64,000 nucleotides of DNA from positions 1,364,001 to 1,428,000 of the forward strand of contig NC_013946.1 of the NCBI RefSeq assembly GCF_000024425.1. Reading direction: 5' to 3'. A program made the translations under genes and the position numbers. Below, one piece after another: positions 33,647 to 56,802 of this stretch. Under the pieces are notes generated by a model, which was not told the origin of the DNA, did not search any database, and worked only from the letters and a program-made list of their open reading frames with translations. The stretch's first letter is position 1. Each line of letters starts with the position of its first letter. Source of the stretch: Meiothermus ruber DSM 1279 (GTDB lineage: Bacteria > Deinococcota > Deinococci > Deinococcales > Thermaceae).

Positions 33647-34273
33647 ATGTTTTTCTTTGAGCTCCTAGGTAGAGATCCCTTGGCCTATCTGGTGGCCTTT
33701 GCCGCCGCTGCTTTTGGCCTGGTTGTTCATAACCTGTTCCAAGCCTATCTGGCTGACCGCTACAAAGACAGCGACCCCAGGCGTTACGGCTTCCTAACGG
33801 TGGAGCCAAGGGTACACCTGGATGGTCTGGGTCTTATTTTCCTGGCGCTGCTTGGCTTTGGCTTTCCACGCCTGGTTCCCTGGCGGCTGTATGGCTCCAG
33901 AGGAGCCCAGACCGCGCTGATGGGGCCGCTGGGGTTCTTTGTGGCTGCCTTCTTTTACATCTTACTCGGAAGGCTTCTGGACAGCCTGGGGCCGGCGACC
34001 TCGAGCATTGCCCTGGGCTTGACGGTAGCCGGTTCCCTGATGATCAGCCATGCCGCGGTCTATTTATTTCCCGTGCCTCCCCTGGATGGGGCAAGGGTGG
34101 TGTATGCGATTGGCAGCCCTGAAGCGCGGCGTTTTATGGATCAGCTACAAAGCTATGGCTTTGTGGGCTTTTTTCTTATCTTCCTGGTTTTGAATCTGAC
34201 CGGGATTCTGCCGGCCATCCGGGAGGGCCTGAGTGGTTTGCTGAACAGCCTGTTTGCTGCGATTGGCTTGTAG
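33647..34273 (+). CDS. Inactive site-2 protease (M50) homologue
   Basis: 208 aa polytopic membrane protein. It aligns with the following gene almost residue for residue, including the C-terminal FPVPPLDGARVVYAIG, equal to LPIPPLDGSKI of active S2P. The zinc-protease motif HExxH is replaced: His28 stays but Asn29 and Gln32 stand where Glu29 and His32 lie in the neighbour (HNLFQ against HEWGH). It therefore cannot be an ordinary zinc protease. Its stop TAG abuts the next ATG, implying translation coupling and probably a partner role, like other pseudoproteases. Function inferred. Confidence 0.78.
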   Translation: MFFFELLGRDPLAYLVAFAAAAFGLVVHNLFQAYLADRYKDSDPRRYGFLTVEPRVHLDGLGLIFLALLGFGFPRLVPWRLYGSRGAQTALMGPLGFFVAAFFYILLGRLLDSLGPATSSIALGLTVAGSLMISHAAVYLFPVPPLDGARVVYAIGSPEARRFMDQLQSYGFVGFFLIFLVLNLTGILPAIREGLSGLLNSLFAAIGL

Positions 34274-34927
34274 ATGGGTTTACTGCCGCTCTTGCAAAGC
34301 GACCCCCTGGCTTTTGTGCTGGTGGTGCTGGTGTTGTTGATCTCACTGGCCCTGCACGAGTGGGGGCACGCCATCACGGCGCTGTGGATGGGCGATTCGA
34401 CCGCCAAAGACCAGGGCCGGGTAACCCTCAACCCCATCAAGCACCTGGATCTCATCGGCTCCATTATGATTCTCCTGGTTGGTTTTGGCTGGGCTAAGCC
34501 CGTGCCTATTTATCCACCCAATTTTCGCCAGTATCGCCTTGGGCTTTTTGTGGTCTCGATAGCGGGAATTTGCATTAATTTATGCATTGCCACCTTACTC
34601 GCCGGACTGCTGCGCTGGATGCTTGTATCCGGTCTTTTAGAGAACCCCAGCCATGGCGTCTTAATCGTAGCCCAGGCTATGGCTGTGGCAGCCAGCATCA
34701 ATCTGACCTTAGCGGTGTTCAATCTACTGCCTATTCCACCCCTGGATGGCTCCAAAATTTTGCAAAGCTTTCTCCCCTTGCGCTGGCACCCTTACATTTG
34801 GCGCTTGGAAGCAAACCCCACCTATGCCATTGTGGCCATGCTGTTGCTGCTGACAGTGTTCCGGCAACCCCTGGGTAGCTTTCTCGGCCTGGTGCGGACG
34901 TGGTTTTTTGATGCCTTTGGTCTTTGA
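34274..34927 (+). CDS. Site-2 protease family intramembrane metalloprotease
   Basis: 217 aa, M50 family. HEWGH at 28-32 supplies two zinc ligands and the catalytic Glu; LLPIPPLDGSKILQSF carries the third acidic ligand near residue 155. Several transmembrane segments surround these (VLVVLVLLISLAL, LGLFVVSIAGICINL, VAMLLLLTVF). This short form resembles the YwhC-type group. Its substrate (often an anti-sigma factor) is unknown; no anti-sigma gene is nearby. It directly follows the inactive paralogue. Confidence 0.9.
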   Translation: MGLLPLLQSDPLAFVLVVLVLLISLALHEWGHAITALWMGDSTAKDQGRVTLNPIKHLDLIGSIMILLVGFGWAKPVPIYPPNFRQYRLGLFVVSIAGICINLCIATLLAGLLRWMLVSGLLENPSHGVLIVAQAMAVAASINLTLAVFNLLPIPPLDGSKILQSFLPLRWHPYIWRLEANPTYAIVAMLLLLTVFRQPLGSFLGLVRTWFFDAFGL

Positions 34928-37220: not shown

Positions 37221-39773
37221 TTACCTACATAGATCGTTGCGGCAAATATCCAGCACCGCCCAGTCGCGTCCCGGCTGGTTGCGCACCACCAGTTTTACCC
37301 ACAACGTACCGCCCTCGGCCCAGTAACGGTCTCCGGTACTGTTATCGAAATCGCTGCGTGAGGCCGCTCGAGCCAGCTTATTGCGGTTATCTATCCAGTA
37401 ATCACGGTAGATGAACGGCTCCCCGTTGTAAGGGATGGCCAGGTTGATGAACTCGCCCGGGGCGCTGTCGTCAAAGCGCAGCCTAAGCTTGTTGGGCATG
37501 TCTCCAGTTAAGCTGAGCGTGTAGCTGCGACCCTTGATCACGGTGGCCCCAAACTCGGTGTTGGCTCCCTCCTGAGGTCGGCCCCACATGCGGAAGACCG
37601 GGTTGCTGCCGTCGTTGCGTTGCAGGGAGACCGGGGCGATGTCACCGCCGCTTTGGTTGTAAATATACAGGCGCCCGTAGCTGTAGTTGCAAATTCCGGC
37701 GTTCCAGTCAGTCCTAATTTCGCAGTTGGTGTCGAGCAAGAAGGGGGTGTTGAGCACGATGGCATGGCCGGGGTGGCCCCCCACCGAACCATCGATATCC
37801 ACAAAAACCGCACCCCGGTAGCCATCGGCGCTATCATCGTTGGCAATTTCTTCAGGGGTGGGCTCTGGACGTGGAGGCAGGTAGACGGGCTTGGCGTTGG
37901 TGAAGCGCGCGCCCTCGGCGAAGTTGCGGCTGTCAATGGCAAAGTCGGTGAAGCGCAGGTAGCTCAGGGCCCCGGCCTCGCGGGTGGCGGTTTGGCTGCC
38001 CTGGGCGTTCTGGATTTGCAGGGGCTGGAAGTTGAAAAACTGCACATTGCGGAAACCGATTTTGCCGTCGTAGAACTCGAAGCCGCGAATGGGGAAGTTG
38101 TCCTGGATGGGGCCGCCGCTGCTGGCCGCCCAGGGCCTGGGCAGGCTGCGTCCGTCGCTACCGCGGAACTCCCAGTTTTCGGGAAAGCCTTTATTGGCGC
38201 TATCGCCCACCACCAGCGAGTCTTCCAGGGTGCTTTCTTGTGAGGCGAAGGTCACCCCGATGGCGTTATCGGCCAGTTTAGCCCCGGTGACCTTGTGGTT
38301 GATGCCGCGCAGCCAGGCGGCGTTGCCTCGGTTTTTGTAGGCGGTGAAGTTTTTGAACTCGGCGACTATGGGCGGGTTTTCGGTGTTGCTGTTACTTGGA
38401 TTGCTAGGATTGGTGCGGGGGTTGTAGACGGTGGGCTCAGCGGCCAGGGTATTTTTGTTGGGGCCGCGGTCGACCATCAGGCCATCCCAGTTGGAGTGGG
38501 CCACATTCCCCGAGAACTCGCCCAATGGGGTGCGGCGGGGCCAGATGGTGGTGGTGGCCGAGGGGCCGGTGGGATTTTCGGGCAATGCGTACCAGAAACC
38601 GGTGTGATCGGAGCCGGCGGCCACGTTGTTGCGCACGATGTTGTCGGGGTGGGTGATCCAGAAGGTGGCGGGGGTTTTATCGGTGGGGATTACACCCAGC
38701 TCGCCCTTGGCCGGGTCGGGTTTGCGGGTCAGGATGCCCAGGTTGCCCTCGATGAGGTTTTTGCTCTCGGCGCCGTCCTCGAGGAAGTAGCAGTGGCCCA
38801 GGGTGTTATAGGCCACGTTGCCGACGACCTCGACCTCGCTGGTGCCGTGAATGGTTACGCAGCGGTTAAAGGACTCGTGGATGGAGGAATTTTTGATGTA
38901 CTGCCCCGGCGCCCGGCCCATCAGGTGCCAGTGGATGGGGTAGCGGGCCAGGGTGTTGCGCTGCCCCATGCGGTAGAGTTCTACACCTGAAACCCGCATA
39001 GTGCTGCCCATCATGGCCATGATGTGCCCGCCAAAACCGGAGCTGCTCGATGAATCGTCCCCCCGGATCAGGATGTTGCGGGAGAGCAGCCCCACCTCGC
39101 CCCGCTGGTCTACCCCGTAGGTGATCTCGCCAAAATGGGGGTACCTGAGGGGGGCATCCAGGGTGAGGGTATTGCCGCTGATGGCCTGGATGGTGCGCAC
39201 CTCGGCCTGTCGGGGGTTGTAATCGGTGGAGGCCAGCACGATGCGGTCGCCCACGCGCCAGCCGCTGGCGTCCAGCACGGTGATCTGGGTGGCGCCAGCG
39301 GGGGCGGTCTGGGCCAGTTTGGTCCAGCCTTTGCGCGGCTCGCCATGCAAGTCCAGGCTGCCCCCCATCACCCCCAGCACCTTGGTGCCCATACCCATCT
39401 GGTCTTCGTCGGGGTTGCTGCCGGTGAGGGTGATGACGGCCCGGTTGCGGAAGGGCTGGTTGGGGGTGCCGACCTCGAGCTTCCCGTGCACCATAATCCA
39501 GTCGGCGCTCAGCTCCAGGTCTCGGTTATCGAAGCGCAAAACGCCGTTGATGGTCAGGCCCTTGAGGGGGGGCGGGCTTACGTCGAGCACCACAGCCAGA
39601 TCGGGGGGAATCACCACCACCTCGCCGGCGCGGGGCGGCTGCCCGCTGGGCCAGGTGCGGGGATCCGACCACATACCAGTACGGCTGGGGTTGGGGCCGT
39701 TGGGGGTGCCTGCGCTATCGGTGTTGCAGGCAGTTAGCATAACCATTATTAGCAGACCTAGCCAGTGCTTCAT
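37221..39773 (-). CDS. G8-domain lipoprotein related to CEMIP/TMEM2
   Basis: 850 aa. Lipoprotein signal MKHWLGLLIMVMLTAC, lipidated Cys16. A G8 domain follows (~34-118) with the typical MWSDPRTWPSGQPPRAGEVV, LKGLTINGVLRFDNRDLEL and ADWIMVHGKLEVGT. After this comes a long right-handed parallel beta-helix region with RYPIHWHLMGRAPGQYIKNS (near residue 275), the same motif region as the conserved YPIHFH of animal CEMIP/TMEM2 and PKHD1L1. In animals G8 proteins bind or cut hyaluronan; the bacterial substrate is unknown. SD AGAGGAG precedes the ATG. It stands alone. Confidence 0.85.
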   Translation of the reverse strand: MKHWLGLLIMVMLTACNTDSAGTPNGPNPSRTGMWSDPRTWPSGQPPRAGEVVVIPPDLAVVLDVSPPPLKGLTINGVLRFDNRDLELSADWIMVHGKLEVGTPNQPFRNRAVITLTGSNPDEDQMGMGTKVLGVMGGSLDLHGEPRKGWTKLAQTAPAGATQITVLDASGWRVGDRIVLASTDYNPRQAEVRTIQAISGNTLTLDAPLRYPHFGEITYGVDQRGEVGLLSRNILIRGDDSSSSSGFGGHIMAMMGSTMRVSGVELYRMGQRNTLARYPIHWHLMGRAPGQYIKNSSIHESFNRCVTIHGTSEVEVVGNVAYNTLGHCYFLEDGAESKNLIEGNLGILTRKPDPAKGELGVIPTDKTPATFWITHPDNIVRNNVAAGSDHTGFWYALPENPTGPSATTTIWPRRTPLGEFSGNVAHSNWDGLMVDRGPNKNTLAAEPTVYNPRTNPSNPSNSNTENPPIVAEFKNFTAYKNRGNAAWLRGINHKVTGAKLADNAIGVTFASQESTLEDSLVVGDSANKGFPENWEFRGSDGRSLPRPWAASSGGPIQDNFPIRGFEFYDGKIGFRNVQFFNFQPLQIQNAQGSQTATREAGALSYLRFTDFAIDSRNFAEGARFTNAKPVYLPPRPEPTPEEIANDDSADGYRGAVFVDIDGSVGGHPGHAIVLNTPFLLDTNCEIRTDWNAGICNYSYGRLYIYNQSGGDIAPVSLQRNDGSNPVFRMWGRPQEGANTEFGATVIKGRSYTLSLTGDMPNKLRLRFDDSAPGEFINLAIPYNGEPFIYRDYWIDNRNKLARAASRSDFDNSTGDRYWAEGGTLWVKLVVRNQPGRDWAVLDICRNDLCR

Positions 39774-39937
39774 CGAAATCTCCTCTAATGCTCTCTTAGA
39801 AAAGTGGCCCCTGCAAGGGTGTTTATGCAGCTAACTTTCAAGATACGGGTCAAGTAACTCTAATTTGTTTGGTGCTGCATTAAGACTCGCTTCATCAATT
39901 AAGCACAAACCCTGCTGCAAGGACCACCCCAGCGGCC

Positions 39938-40227: not shown

Positions 40228-40602
40228 ATGAAGCGTTTTCTAGTGGTTGTCAGCGCCCTCATGGTTGTAGGGATGGCTGTTGCGCAGTCGAGCCCCTACC
40301 GCTTGAGGGTGCTGTCCTGGAGCTGTCAGGCCTTTGCACGCGGGGTGCTGATTCAGGGCACGGTGCGCAATATCAGCCCCCGGCCTTTGCAGGACTTGCG
40401 GGTGAGTGCTCGAGTGATTGGCCCAGGGCTGCGCATGGCCGCTAACTCGGCGCCCCTGCAGGATCGCAACCTAATGCCGGGGGAGTCGGCGCGCTTTGAG
40501 CTGCGGGTTCGCACCAATTTTGATTCGGTGAGCCGTTGTGAGCTGTGGTTCCGCAATCCTCGAGTGATCCAGATCGCCACCCTGGTGCCCAATCCCCGTT
40601 GA
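40228..40602 (+). CDS. Small exported protein, FxLYD-like (paralogue 1)
   Basis: 124 aa. Signal peptide MKRFLVVVSALMVVGMAVAQ, then a ~100-residue beta-sandwich with the early motif RLRVLSWSCQAFARGVLIQG, a conserved NIS.RPLQDLRVSARVI strand pair, and a late CELWFRNPRVIQI. Two cysteines (WSC and CEL) are conserved with the next gene and may form a disulfide. This domain style is like FxLYD-type surface proteins. No catalytic residues are recognised. Confidence 0.75.
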   Translation: MKRFLVVVSALMVVGMAVAQSSPYRLRVLSWSCQAFARGVLIQGTVRNISPRPLQDLRVSARVIGPGLRMAANSAPLQDRNLMPGESARFELRVRTNFDSVSRCELWFRNPRVIQIATLVPNPR

Positions 40603-40662
40603 GCGCCCGGAGGCGCAACGCCTGGGTCTCTGGGTTCCGCTATCTTTGGTAGCATTGGCGGT

Positions 40663-41064
40663 ATGAGATTGGGTGCCCTTATCTTGGGAATCTTTTTCTG
40701 GCTGGGGCTGGGTCAGGCGCAGGGCGTGGTGTACAAGCTGCGCGTCACCGAATGGAGCTGCACACCCAGCGCGGGGGTGATGATTGCGAGGGGAACCGTG
40801 GTTAACCAGTCCGGCCAGACCCTACACAACGTGCGCGTCAACCTGCGGGTGGTGGACAAAGTGGTTACCACGGTCAACGGGGTTCCGAACCGAAGGGTTT
40901 ACGGCACCAACTCGGCCCCGATTGCCGAGCGAAGCCTGGCCAACGGGGCCAGCAGCCGCTTTGAGGTGCGGGTTCGGCCTGCGCAACTTCAGGGCACCCA
41001 GTGCCAGCTCTGGTTCCGTAGCCCGGACATCGTGCAAATCCCCACCCGTGTGCCGGGTCAGTAG
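40663..41064 (+). CDS. Small exported protein, FxLYD-like (paralogue 2)
   Basis: 133 aa. Signal peptide MRLGALILGIFFWLGLGQAQ, then KLRVTEWSCTPSAGVMIARG, NVRVNLRVVDKVV, GASSRFEVRVRPAQL and CQLWFRSPDIVQI. It shares pattern, length and the Cys pair with the upstream gene, so the two arose by duplication. A TAGCAT box seven bases before the ATG suggests its own leaderless promoter, so the pair need not be an operon. Confidence 0.78.
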   Translation: MRLGALILGIFFWLGLGQAQGVVYKLRVTEWSCTPSAGVMIARGTVVNQSGQTLHNVRVNLRVVDKVVTTVNGVPNRRVYGTNSAPIAERSLANGASSRFEVRVRPAQLQGTQCQLWFRSPDIVQIPTRVPGQ

Positions 41065-45005: not shown

Positions 45006-45902
45006 TCAGACGACCAGCTCGGCGATGCGGGCTTTATGGGCTTCCACCAGGGCCAGGTCGTCTTTGTCCTTGATGATTACGCCCCAGGTCTGCTCGAGGA
45101 TGCTCATATCGAGGGACTCCTTGTGCAGTGAGACCAGCGCCTCGGCCCAGTCCAGGCTCTCGGCCACGCCGGGGGCCTTGTTCAGGGGCAGCTCGCGCAG
45201 GTGGGCCACCACCCTTGCAATCTTTTGTGCCAGCCGCTCGTTGATGCCCGGTAGCCTGGCCCGGATGATCTCGACCTCTTTTTCAAAGCTGGGGTAGTTT
45301 TGCCACAGGTACAAACAGCGCCGCCGGAGGGCGTCCGACAGCTCGCGGCTGCGGTTGGAGGTCAGGATCACATAGGGCCGGTGCCGGGCCTTGAGGGTGC
45401 CCAGCTCGGGGATGGTGACCTGAAACTCGGCTAAAAGCTCGAGCAAAAAAGCCTCGAACTCCTCGTCGGTGCGGTCTATCTCGTCAATCAGCAGCACCGG
45501 GGGCTGATCCTGCGAGATGGCCTCGAGCAGCGGGCGGCGCAGCAGGTAGGCCTCACTGAAAATCTCGGCCTCACGCTGGGCCAGGCTCTCGCCCGAATTC
45601 TCGGTCAGGCGGATGTGCAGCATCTGCTTGGGGTAGTTCCACTCGTACAGGGCCTGGGCGGTGTCGAGGCCTTCGTAGCACTGCAGCCGAATCAGCCGGG
45701 TATCCAGCACCTCAGCTAGGGTTTTGGCGACCTGGGTTTTGCCCACCCCGGCGGGGCCCTCGACCAGCAGCGGCTTGCGCAGGGCCATCACCAGCCTGAG
45801 GGCGGTGGCCATGGGCAGGTCGGCGATGTAGTTGCGCTCGCGCAGAACGGCCTGGATACCCTCGACGCTTTGTAGAAGCGGATTCTGCTCAGCCGGGTTC
45901 AT
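45006..45902 (-). CDS. coxD: AAA+ ATPase, MoxR/CoxD family
   Basis: 298 aa. Walker A LLVEGPAGVGKTQVAKTLAE, Walker B PPVLLIDEIDRTDEEFEAFL and sensor 1 TSNRSRELSDALRRRC. In Oligotropha, CoxD is needed to build the [CuSMoO2] cluster, as a chaperone/ATPase partner of CoxE. The gene overlaps the XdhC-YHS gene upstream by 4 nt and is followed by coxE, so the three are cotranscribed. Confidence 0.88.
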   Translation of the reverse strand: MNPAEQNPLLQSVEGIQAVLRERNYIADLPMATALRLVMALRKPLLVEGPAGVGKTQVAKTLAEVLDTRLIRLQCYEGLDTAQALYEWNYPKQMLHIRLTENSGESLAQREAEIFSEAYLLRRPLLEAISQDQPPVLLIDEIDRTDEEFEAFLLELLAEFQVTIPELGTLKARHRPYVILTSNRSRELSDALRRRCLYLWQNYPSFEKEVEIIRARLPGINERLAQKIARVVAHLRELPLNKAPGVAESLDWAEALVSLHKESLDMSILEQTWGVIIKDKDDLALVEAHKARIAELVV

Positions 45903-46963
45903 GCCCTACCCTTCAGGTACTTTTCGGGGTTTTTCAGGAACTTGGCGCGGCAGTTGGGGCAGCTAAAGTAGTAGGTCTGGCCCTGGTACTCGGCGCTGAC
46001 GGCTTTGGCGATTTCGACCAGCTCGCCGCTGGTGGGGTCGATGGCCATACCGCTGGGGATGGCGGCAGGGGCTGCGGCCACCGGAAGATCGGCTGCGATG
46101 GCCTGAACCTGCTCGAGCGCCGGCAAGGGGTTTGGAGGGGCCTCGACAGCTACTTTTTGGGGGTTCTTTTGGTGCTTGAGTGAGATGATCTCGGCCAGGA
46201 TCGAGACGGCCACCTCGTCGCGCCCGCGCCCCCCTAAGTCGAGCCCGGCGGGGTATTTGAGCTGGGGGAAGGTGGTTCTGGGTACTCCCAGAATTTCCAG
46301 ATTGTCCAGCACCGCGGCCCCGCGCTTTCGGCTCGCCACCAGCCCCAGGTAGGCCGGGCGGGGCATGCGCTGGGCGATGAGCACCAGGGCGTCTTCGTCG
46401 TAGTGGCCCTGCGAGGCGATTACGATATGGGTTTTGGCGGGGTTTTGCGCGTCGAGCCAGTTTCCCAGTTCGCGCCAGTCCAGCACCTGTATCTCGGACT
46501 CGAGGCTCACCCCGGCCAGCTCGGGCTTATCGCAGGCCAGCGTGACGGTGTAGTTCATGCGGGCGGCTATCTGGGCGGTGGTGAGGGCGATTTGCGAACC
46601 CCCCACCACCAGCAAGCAGGATTTGCCAATCAGGGGCTCGATGTAGACGTCCACCGCGCCCTCGCTGGCGCAGGTCATGGGAATGACCACCTCGTCGGCG
46701 TGCTCGAGCACCACCTTAGCCGCCGCCTCCGGGGTAATCCTGACCAGCCGGGGCTTGCCCAGGCGCAGGGCCTCGAGGGCCTGTTTGCGCACAATTTCCC
46801 GTGAACAAGCACCCCCCACATACCCTTCAAAGCACCCATCTTCAAAGATGATGGCTTTGTCGCCCAGGTGCGAGGAGACCGGGGCCTGGCGCGAGACCAC
46901 CGTAGCCAGTGCAAAGGACTGGCCGCTTTGCCTGAGCTCAGCAATTCTGCTGTAGATGTCCAT
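45899..46963 (-). CDS. XdhC/CoxF-family maturation factor with C-terminal YHS domain
   Basis: 354 aa. XdhC domains: N-terminal RQSGQSFALATVVSRQAPVS with GGACSREIVRKQALEALR, then a Rossmann region (LLVVGGSQIALTTAQIAARM) and LGLVASRKRGAAVLDNLEI. The C-terminal ~45 residues form a YHS-like metal-binding domain: AIDPTSGELVEIAKAVSAEY then YYFSCPNCRAKFLKNPEKYL, with CxxC kept. XdhC proteins sulfurate or insert the Mo cofactor; the YHS tail might handle copper or another metal for the Mo-Cu site. That role is inferred. Confidence 0.82.
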   Translation of the reverse strand: MDIYSRIAELRQSGQSFALATVVSRQAPVSSHLGDKAIIFEDGCFEGYVGGACSREIVRKQALEALRLGKPRLVRITPEAAAKVVLEHADEVVIPMTCASEGAVDVYIEPLIGKSCLLVVGGSQIALTTAQIAARMNYTVTLACDKPELAGVSLESEIQVLDWRELGNWLDAQNPAKTHIVIASQGHYDEDALVLIAQRMPRPAYLGLVASRKRGAAVLDNLEILGVPRTTFPQLKYPAGLDLGGRGRDEVAVSILAEIISLKHQKNPQKVAVEAPPNPLPALEQVQAIAADLPVAAAPAAIPSGMAIDPTSGELVEIAKAVSAEYQGQTYYFSCPNCRAKFLKNPEKYLKGRA

Positions 46964-55665: not shown

Positions 55666-56802
55666 ATGACGCATTACGATGCCCTCATAGTTGGCGCGGG
55701 CATTATCGGCGCCGCCTGCGCGTACCGCCTGGCGGAGCGGGGCCTTCGGGTGGGGGTGCTGGAGATGGCCCCCGCACCCGCCATGGGTTCGACCGGTAAG
55801 AGTGCAGCGGGGGTGCGGGTGCAGTTTACCGAGGCCACCAACATTCTGCTGTCCTGGTATTCCATACAGGAGTATCAAGCGATGCCGGAAGCAGCCTACC
55901 GGCCCATCGGCTATCTGTTTCTGGTGCCGGACTCCCAGTGGGAACAGCACCTGGCGGGGGTGGAGCTGCAGCGCAGCCTGGGGGTACCGGTGGAGGTGCG
56001 CGACCTCGAGGCCGCCCAGGAGTGGTTCAGCTTCTCGCCAATAGCAGCGGGCCTGGAAGCCATCCGGGGGGCCACCTATGGCCCTGCCGACGGTATTGTA
56101 GACCCCCATGGCATCTGCCTGGCCTACCTGCGGCGCGCAAGGGAGATGGGGGCTTTGGTGCATACCGAGACCGAGTTTTGCCTGGCCCAGCCGACCAAAA
56201 CTGGATGGAAGGTGCAGACCCCCAAAGGGTGGCTCGAGGCCCGGGTGGTGATCAACGCGGCTGGGGCCTGGGCGGGGGAGGTGGGGCGACGGGCGGGGCT
56301 GAGTATCCCGGTGAAGCCCGCCCGGCGGATGGTTTTCTGCACCGCGCCCATACCCCAACCCTCCTGGCATCCCCTGACCATAGATCTGTCCAGCGGCTTC
56401 TGGTTTCGCCCCGAGCACGACCGGCTGATTTTTGGCCGCAGCAATCCGGCCGATCTGGGCTTCCACGAAGGGATGGACTGGGGCTGGCTCGAGCCCACCC
56501 TCGAGGTGGGCCTGGCCCGCTTTCCCTGGCTCGAGGGGTGTAACCTCGACCAAAAGGCGAGCTGGTGGGGCTACTACGAGGTTACCCCCGATCACAACCC
56601 CATCCTGGGCTGGATGCCGGGTGTGAAGGGATGGGTCAACGCCTGTGGCTTTTCCGGCCACGGGGTGCAGCAGGCCGCTATGGTAGGCCGTCTGATGGCT
56701 GAGGAAGTAGTGGATGGGCGGGCTTGCAGCTTGAATATAGACGCACTGCGCTATGAGCGCTTTCTGGAAGATGCCAAGACGCGGGAAAAAAACATCGTCT
56801 AG
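55666..56802 (+). CDS. FAD-dependent oxidoreductase (DAO/sarcosine oxidase family)
   Basis: 378 aa. N-terminal dinucleotide-binding motif DALIVGAGIIGAACAYRLAE; GKSAAGVRVQFTEATN is the flavin-linked region; ARVVINAAGAWAGEVGRRAG and the C-terminal NACGFSGHGVQQAAMVGRLM are typical of glycine/sarcosine oxidase and D-amino acid dehydrogenase relatives. The substrate is unknown. The open frame starts earlier (55462) within the previous gene; TAAAGT seven bases before the ATG at 55666 supports this start and a leaderless mRNA. Confidence 0.87.
   Translation: MTHYDALIVGAGIIGAACAYRLAERGLRVGVLEMAPAPAMGSTGKSAAGVRVQFTEATNILLSWYSIQEYQAMPEAAYRPIGYLFLVPDSQWEQHLAGVELQRSLGVPVEVRDLEAAQEWFSFSPIAAGLEAIRGATYGPADGIVDPHGICLAYLRRAREMGALVHTETEFCLAQPTKTGWKVQTPKGWLEARVVINAAGAWAGEVGRRAGLSIPVKPARRMVFCTAPIPQPSWHPLTIDLSSGFWFRPEHDRLIFGRSNPADLGFHEGMDWGWLEPTLEVGLARFPWLEGCNLDQKASWWGYYEVTPDHNPILGWMPGVKGWVNACGFSGHGVQQAAMVGRLMAEEVVDGRACSLNIDALRYERFLEDAKTREKNIV

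Follow-up and report, generated by a model that had tools for sequence, protein, structure and literature searches.

We have identified a bacterial homolog of the animal proteins CEMIP and TMEM2 in Meiothermus ruber DSM 1279. It is encoded in a 64,000-nucleotide stretch of the genome, referred to here as the window. The homology is strongly supported by both sequence and structure comparisons. The protein comprises the G8 and beta-helix core, and probably the domain X, that are common to CEMIP and TMEM2, and has neither of the two lectin-like domains of the animal proteins. A cluster of His, Arg, Glu and Asp residues that is invariant among the bacterial relatives and preserved in TMEM2 is proposed, from the modeled structure, as the candidate active site of the family.

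The gene and its product

The open reading frame lies exactly where the first-pass annotation of this DNA had placed it. The features of the gene and of the predicted protein are as follows.

37221..39773, minus strand: gene for the G8/CEMIP-beta-helix protein, a predicted lipoprotein of 850 amino acids, with an ATG start
39780..39786, minus strand: Shine-Dalgarno-like AGAGGAG, 6 bases before the ATG, as read from the sequence
39726..39773, minus strand: putative signal peptide and lipobox (LTAC), residues 1-16, from the sequence and conserved in relatives, with a predicted helix at residues 3-14
39312..39656, minus strand: G8 domain, residues 40-154 (Pfam PF10162, 6e-33), which in TMEM2 is part of a continuous beta-helix (PMC10206443)
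39144..39323, minus strand: small insert domain, about residues 151-210 (phrog_1082, 2.2e-6; likeness to 9n71)
38484..39038, minus strand: CEMIP beta-helix core, residues 246-430 (Pfam PF24606, 9.6e-77)
37236..37886, minus strand: C-terminal region resembling the 'domain X' of TMEM2, about residues 630-846, from a superposition that extends to TMEM2 residue 1157

The Pfam matches to G8 (PF10162) and CEMIP_beta-hel (PF24606) score 113.8 and 257.9 bits, against cut-offs of 22.9 and 27.3 bits, respectively. A G8 domain had been noted earlier at about residues 34-118; the domain is present, although it is longer than was thought. The other Pfam matches of the protein are weak ones to Beta_helix and LPAM_1, with none to AlgG/AlgE or PL6-type families, and a scan against NCBIfam gave no match. 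Residues 151-210 match phrog_1082, a phage tail-assembly family, and resemble an Acinetobacter phage tail-tube structure (9n71; phmmer E-value 0.074, Foldseek 89 columns at 3.2 A); this insert seems to be a module that the protein has in common with phage tails.

The N-terminus, MKHWLGLLIMVMLTAC, has the form of a signal peptide with the lipobox L13-T14-A15-C16. The generic LPAM_1 model of Pfam scores 11.5 bits on this lipobox, below its 20-bit cut-off. Among the Deinococcota relatives whose N-terminus is complete, nearly all have the pattern L-x-[AGS]-C at the equivalent place, which upholds the TAC lipobox of the first-pass annotation. The surface anchoring put forward in that annotation is deduced from a lipobox, and in the two-layered envelope of the Deinococcota the anchor may face either side. 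From the N-terminal sequence we infer that the product is probably a lipoprotein, anchored in a membrane through C16 and thereby tethered to the cell envelope. This is the only G8 gene in the M. ruber genome. Every Meiothermus genome searched has an intact copy, and the dN/dS of 0.09-0.26 points to purifying selection, so we regard it as a functioning gene.

Fold and relationship to TMEM2

An AlphaFold2 model based on a 30-sequence alignment has a mean pLDDT of 91.7 and a pTM of 0.90. In a phmmer comparison the protein matches the PDB chain 8c6i (human TMEM2) with an E-value of 1.3e-93, and TMEM2 is also the top Foldseek match of the model in the PDB (E-value 3.5e-50, TMq 0.85), roughly forty orders of magnitude before the next entry. 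VIA-align superposes residues 28-846 of the 850-residue model on TMEM2 residues 116-1157 (Z 38.8, 2.2 A over 762 residues, 33% identity). The runners-up, mostly carbohydrate-active beta-helices, begin with two C5-epimerases, AlgG and AlgE (Z about 22), and NosD (7osf, Z 21.0), followed by phage tailspikes and polysaccharide lyases; a family missing from this list of matches is not to be read as excluded. The alginate C5-epimerases and the PL6-type lyases share the right-handed beta-helix, but identity to AlgG is only 14% over 313 residues and the likeness is at the level of the fold. Superposition on TMEM2, which had been suggested as a check, reveals both the shared beta-helix and the His site. 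The motif RYPIHWHLMG, equated with the animal motif in the first-pass annotation, is aligned with RYPVHFHLCG of human TMEM2.

In TMEM2/CEMIP2 (8C6I) and in CEMIP (KIAA1199/HYBID), as in the bacterial protein, G8 forms the first turns of a right-handed beta-helix, which is accompanied by the CEMIP beta-helix, and the invariant R-Y-P-x-H-x-H, R...H and G-H...E-D motifs are shared. Domain X of the animal proteins is covered by the superposition; the Pfam model CEMIP_X has no match here and matches one of 34 relatives. Unlike the bacterial protein, the animal proteins contain a lectin-like domain 1, inserted in the helix, and a C-terminal lectin-like domain 2. They are provided with a signal sequence or a type II membrane anchor, whereas the bacterial protein has a predicted lipid anchor. 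The groove of TMEM2 is obstructed by loop 627-662, while its bacterial counterpart (about residues 351-369, containing the near-invariant D365) is shorter. PKHD1L1 and fibrocystin (PKHD1) also have a G8 domain followed by parallel beta-helix repeats (for fibrocystin, PMC13424714), but as very large receptors they also carry IPT and PA14 domains, which the bacterial protein lacks.

Invariant residues and proposed function

Conservation was assessed in an alignment of 112 bacterial sequences with the TMEM2 chain, whose numbering was checked by Cys554 and Cys750; both land where the structure paper has them (PMC10206443). There are 78 positions at which conservation among the bacteria is at least 95%, and TMEM2 has the same residue at 70 of these; over all aligned positions the share of identities is 36%. 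R277, Y278, H281, H283, R304 and H309 are found in all 110 bacterial sequences that have letters at these positions, and H327, E332, W372, H426 and D502 in 111 of 111. All eleven are identical in TMEM2 (R546, Y547, H550, H552, R580, H585, H603, E608, W666, H722 and D803). Three motifs are of particular concern here.

38925..38945, minus strand: R277-Y278-P-I-H281-W-H283, candidate active-site rung (110/110; TMEM2 R546, Y547, H550, H552)
38847..38864, minus strand: R304...H309, next rung (110/110; TMEM2 R580, H585)
38766..38795, minus strand: H327...E332-D333..E336, third rung (107-111 of 111; TMEM2 H603, E608, D609, E612)

According to DSSP assignments for the model, PB1, the first strand of a rung, holds H281/H283, H309 and H327 in three rungs that follow one another. 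The turns that lead into PB1 contain R277, R304 and D365, and the turn that leaves it contains E332/D333/E336; the alignment of D365 is ambiguous, as it may correspond to TMEM2 D634 or D658. The strands of the model also reveal an Asn ladder at turn T2 (N319, N344, N383 and N423), a feature of pectate-lyase-type helices. As modeled, most of the eleven invariant residues appear on or beside one sheet, on successive rungs. Ionizable invariants were not significantly more frequent in PB1/T1/T3 than in PB2/T2/PB3 (12/188 versus 2/76, p = 0.36), and the claim of clustering therefore rests on the rung order. In lyases, hydrolases and epimerases built as beta-helices, the active site is on the PB1-side face, and AlgG uses a His and an Arg from neighboring rungs near PB1. 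It is on this model that the invariant cluster is proposed above as the candidate active site. A broader reading is tentative, and we regard it as possible but doubtful: the cluster H281/H283-R304-H309-H327-E332/D333-E336 (H550/H552-R580-H585-H603-E608/D609-E612 in TMEM2) would be the active site of the whole CEMIP/TMEM2/PKHD1L1 superfamily, and the bacterial core would represent the ancestral form, an enzyme of polysaccharides, while the lectin-like domains, and with them hyaluronan specificity, would have been gained later, in animals.

For the M. ruber protein itself we infer, with somewhat better than even confidence, that it is an exported, tethered lipoprotein enzyme that acts on an acidic or otherwise complex polysaccharide, with its active site in the PB1 groove. 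The substrate is probably not hyaluronan. After export and lipidation on C16, the protein would take the shape of an elongated beta-helix. A polysaccharide chain would then be bound along the PB1 groove by the His/Arg/Glu/Asp cluster, with H281, H283, R304, H309, H327, E332/D333 and E336 arranged on successive rungs and R277, Y278, D365, W372, H426 and D502 around them, and would be cleaved, or possibly epimerized, in the groove along this sheet. Candidate substrates would be a polymer of the bacterium's own envelope or biofilm, or the exopolysaccharide of a neighbor. Among 34 relatives scanned with Pfam, 4 have a PA14 domain and 2 an F5/8-type C domain, both of which often bind carbohydrate. 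Because the gene is retained genus-wide at one locus, either a housekeeping role in envelope or biofilm or feeding on cyanobacterial exopolysaccharide would fit; M. ruber strain A can live with cyanobacterial partners (PMC5340862). CEMIP has been reported to be an endo-beta-N-acetylglucosaminidase (PMC6888145), and the His/Arg/Tyr set also resembles that of beta-helix lyases, such as the PL31 enzymes with their His/Tyr and Arg (table of PMC12254123), so hydrolase and lyase chemistry may both be considered. The 'ancient polysaccharide-processing function' suggested by the first-pass annotation is plausible. In the papers that we found, no member of the bacterial family is characterized and no activity of one is measured.

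The protein could instead be a non-catalytic glycan-binding or structural lipoprotein of the envelope, in which the His, Arg and Glu residues brace the helix or bind a structural metal. We think this unlikely, but there are observations in its favor: the purified ectodomain of human TMEM2 had neither hyaluronidase activity nor an assignable active site (PMC10206443), beta-helices without enzymatic activity exist, the NosD-like copper-protein helices superpose too, and catabolic genes are lacking in the neighborhood. However, eleven ionizable, polar or aromatic positions never vary among the 110-111 sequences, which represent at least six phyla. These positions are located mostly along one face of the rungs, which is not a core-packing pattern, and look like an active site or a specific ligand site.

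If the protein is an enzyme, as we prefer to think, its specificity must be considered in light of the missing domains. The Pfam scan of the 850-residue protein found no lectin-like (GG) domain. Lectin-like (GG) domain 1 is absent: only 6 residues (between positions 158 and 165) separate the matches to TMEM2 chain indices 166 and 338. The second, C-terminal lectin-like domain is absent as well, as the superposition stops at TMEM2 residue 1157 (model residue 846). The substitutions R265C, D273N and D286N, which abolish hyaluronan degradation, are located in lectin-like domain 1 (PMC10206443), and H248 and A303 of mouse TMEM2, which are essential for this activity, are in the GG domain (PMC10276149). 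Thus, with the lectin-like domains, every residue so far reported as essential for hyaluronan degradation is missing. A search of the relatives for the animal lectin-like ILEI domain found none, yet it found none in control genomes either and so carries little weight. The first-pass annotation had called the protein a homolog of the CEMIP/TMEM2 hyaluronidases. Its homology in sequence and fold is borne out, but the name hyaluronidase should not be used, since the GG domain, a defining feature of the animal depolymerases, is missing. The bacterial protein may work like the core of TMEM2. A true hyaluronidase of the CEMIP kind, with hyaluronan or a similar polymer as its substrate, is improbable: core fold and invariant residues are the same as in TMEM2, but the domain with all of the reported essential residues is gone and a hot-spring bacterium has no obvious supply of hyaluronan. 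Uronic-acid polymers are possible, because the M. ruber genome encodes one NDP-sugar dehydrogenase-type enzyme.

Whether TMEM2 is itself an enzyme is disputed (PMC10206443 and PMC10276149 versus PMC10474455; reviewed in PMC12254123), and its active site could not be assigned from the structure (PMC10206443). As a thermophile's version of the bare core of a human protein, the M. ruber protein should be easy to make and crystallize, and the small invariant set in the bacterial alignment provides a short list of point mutants for the CEMIP/TMEM2 active site. Its value lies in providing a minimal, and probably robust, model of a human enzyme family that is under dispute. The family is already named in databases; the residues kept from bacteria to humans suggest where its active site may lie. 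The comparison further suggests that an older core, acting on polysaccharides, acquired the hyaluronan-related domains later.

Distribution, history and genomic context

A scan of genome contigs found at least 512 relatives, and the best 79 of these loci belong to Deinococcota, Chloroflexota, Actinomycetota, Gemmatimonadota, Pseudomonadota and Acidobacteriota. Several relatives are already named 'G8 domain-containing protein' in RefSeq; the one on the Croceibacterium atlanticum plasmid NZ_CP011453.2, with 46% identity across 95% of the query, belongs to this family. Relatives were found in ten plasmid records. Even samples contain the beta-helix family in 3 of 398 genomes of Pseudomonadota, 4 of 199 of Acidobacteriota, 15 of 296 of Actinomycetota and 8 of 201 of Chloroflexota, each count including the genome used as centre. 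In Deinococcota it is present in 39 of 111 genomes, including all 18 of Meiothermus, and is absent from all listed genomes of the Thermus-like genus g5, which by kinship we take to be Thermus. A second, divergent subfamily is found in several genomes of family f5 and in some Meiothermus. In Pseudomonadota most forms carry an ordinary Sec signal, a His-rich linker is common and a genome often has several copies, whereas the Thermaceae form is a predicted lipoprotein. On a contig titled Klebsiella pneumoniae (MAG; L108) there are tandem G8 proteins whose closest grouping is with Gammaproteobacteria MAGs, and the bin is probably mis-assigned. On a MAG contig titled Thermoleophilia (L112) there is a copy close to one from Gemmatimonadota (L082), reflecting either mis-binning or recent transfer. 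A phage origin was rejected, as 50,697 phage records contained no relative and the structure comparison with viral proteins gave low TM-scores, to depolymerases and tailspikes of the generic beta-helix type.

In Thermaceae the locus is flanked by rsmD/coaD and, at its other end, by ligA or sucC; this holds for many Meiothermus genomes as well as for genera g2 and g4. These shared neighbors argue for vertical inheritance in Thermaceae and loss in Thermus. In a tree with one eukaryotic sequence, TMEM2 has a long, deep branch, and its identity to each of the main bacterial clades is about the same (29-35%); a recent exchange involving Meiothermus has thus left no sign. The exchange between domains raised in the first-pass annotation is therefore unsupported if a recent event is meant. 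Nor is the thermophile setting as informative as had been supposed, since the family is patchy over many mesophilic and thermophilic phyla and missing from the listed g5 genomes. Distribution, synteny and tree led us to reject a thermophile-specific origin or a recent transfer. Recent acquisition by Meiothermus from a eukaryote, in particular, merits almost no credence: the patchy bacterial distribution speaks for it, but the conserved neighborhood and the equal distances of TMEM2 speak against it.

Clustering and scanning of the neighboring genes revealed no operon partner or polysaccharide-utilization cluster. The commonest neighbor families were TonB receptors (3/100), then sulfatases, CorA, PQQ enzymes and others (2/100 each); functional partner genes were rejected, a maximum of 3/100 being no signal. 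At three loci (L091, L073 and L135) the G8 gene has a sulfatase-like gene in its vicinity, which may hint, though weakly, that some lineages act on sulfated substrates.

Several other features of the window were noted. ARAGORN predicts a tRNA-Cys with anticodon ACA at 56043-56134 (minus strand), where Rfam has no tRNA, and this is probably a false positive. Two adjacent membrane proteins at 33647-34927 (plus strand) resemble M50/site-2 proteases; the second has HEWGH, while the first has HNLFQ at the equivalent place and may have lost its metal site. At 40228-41064 (plus strand), beside a tRNA-Pro gene, there are two tandem small secreted paralogs of 124 and 133 amino acids that look FxLYD-like. 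An XdhC-like protein encoded at 45899-46963 (minus strand) ends in a C-terminal YHS-like tail (YYFSCPNCRAKFLKNP).
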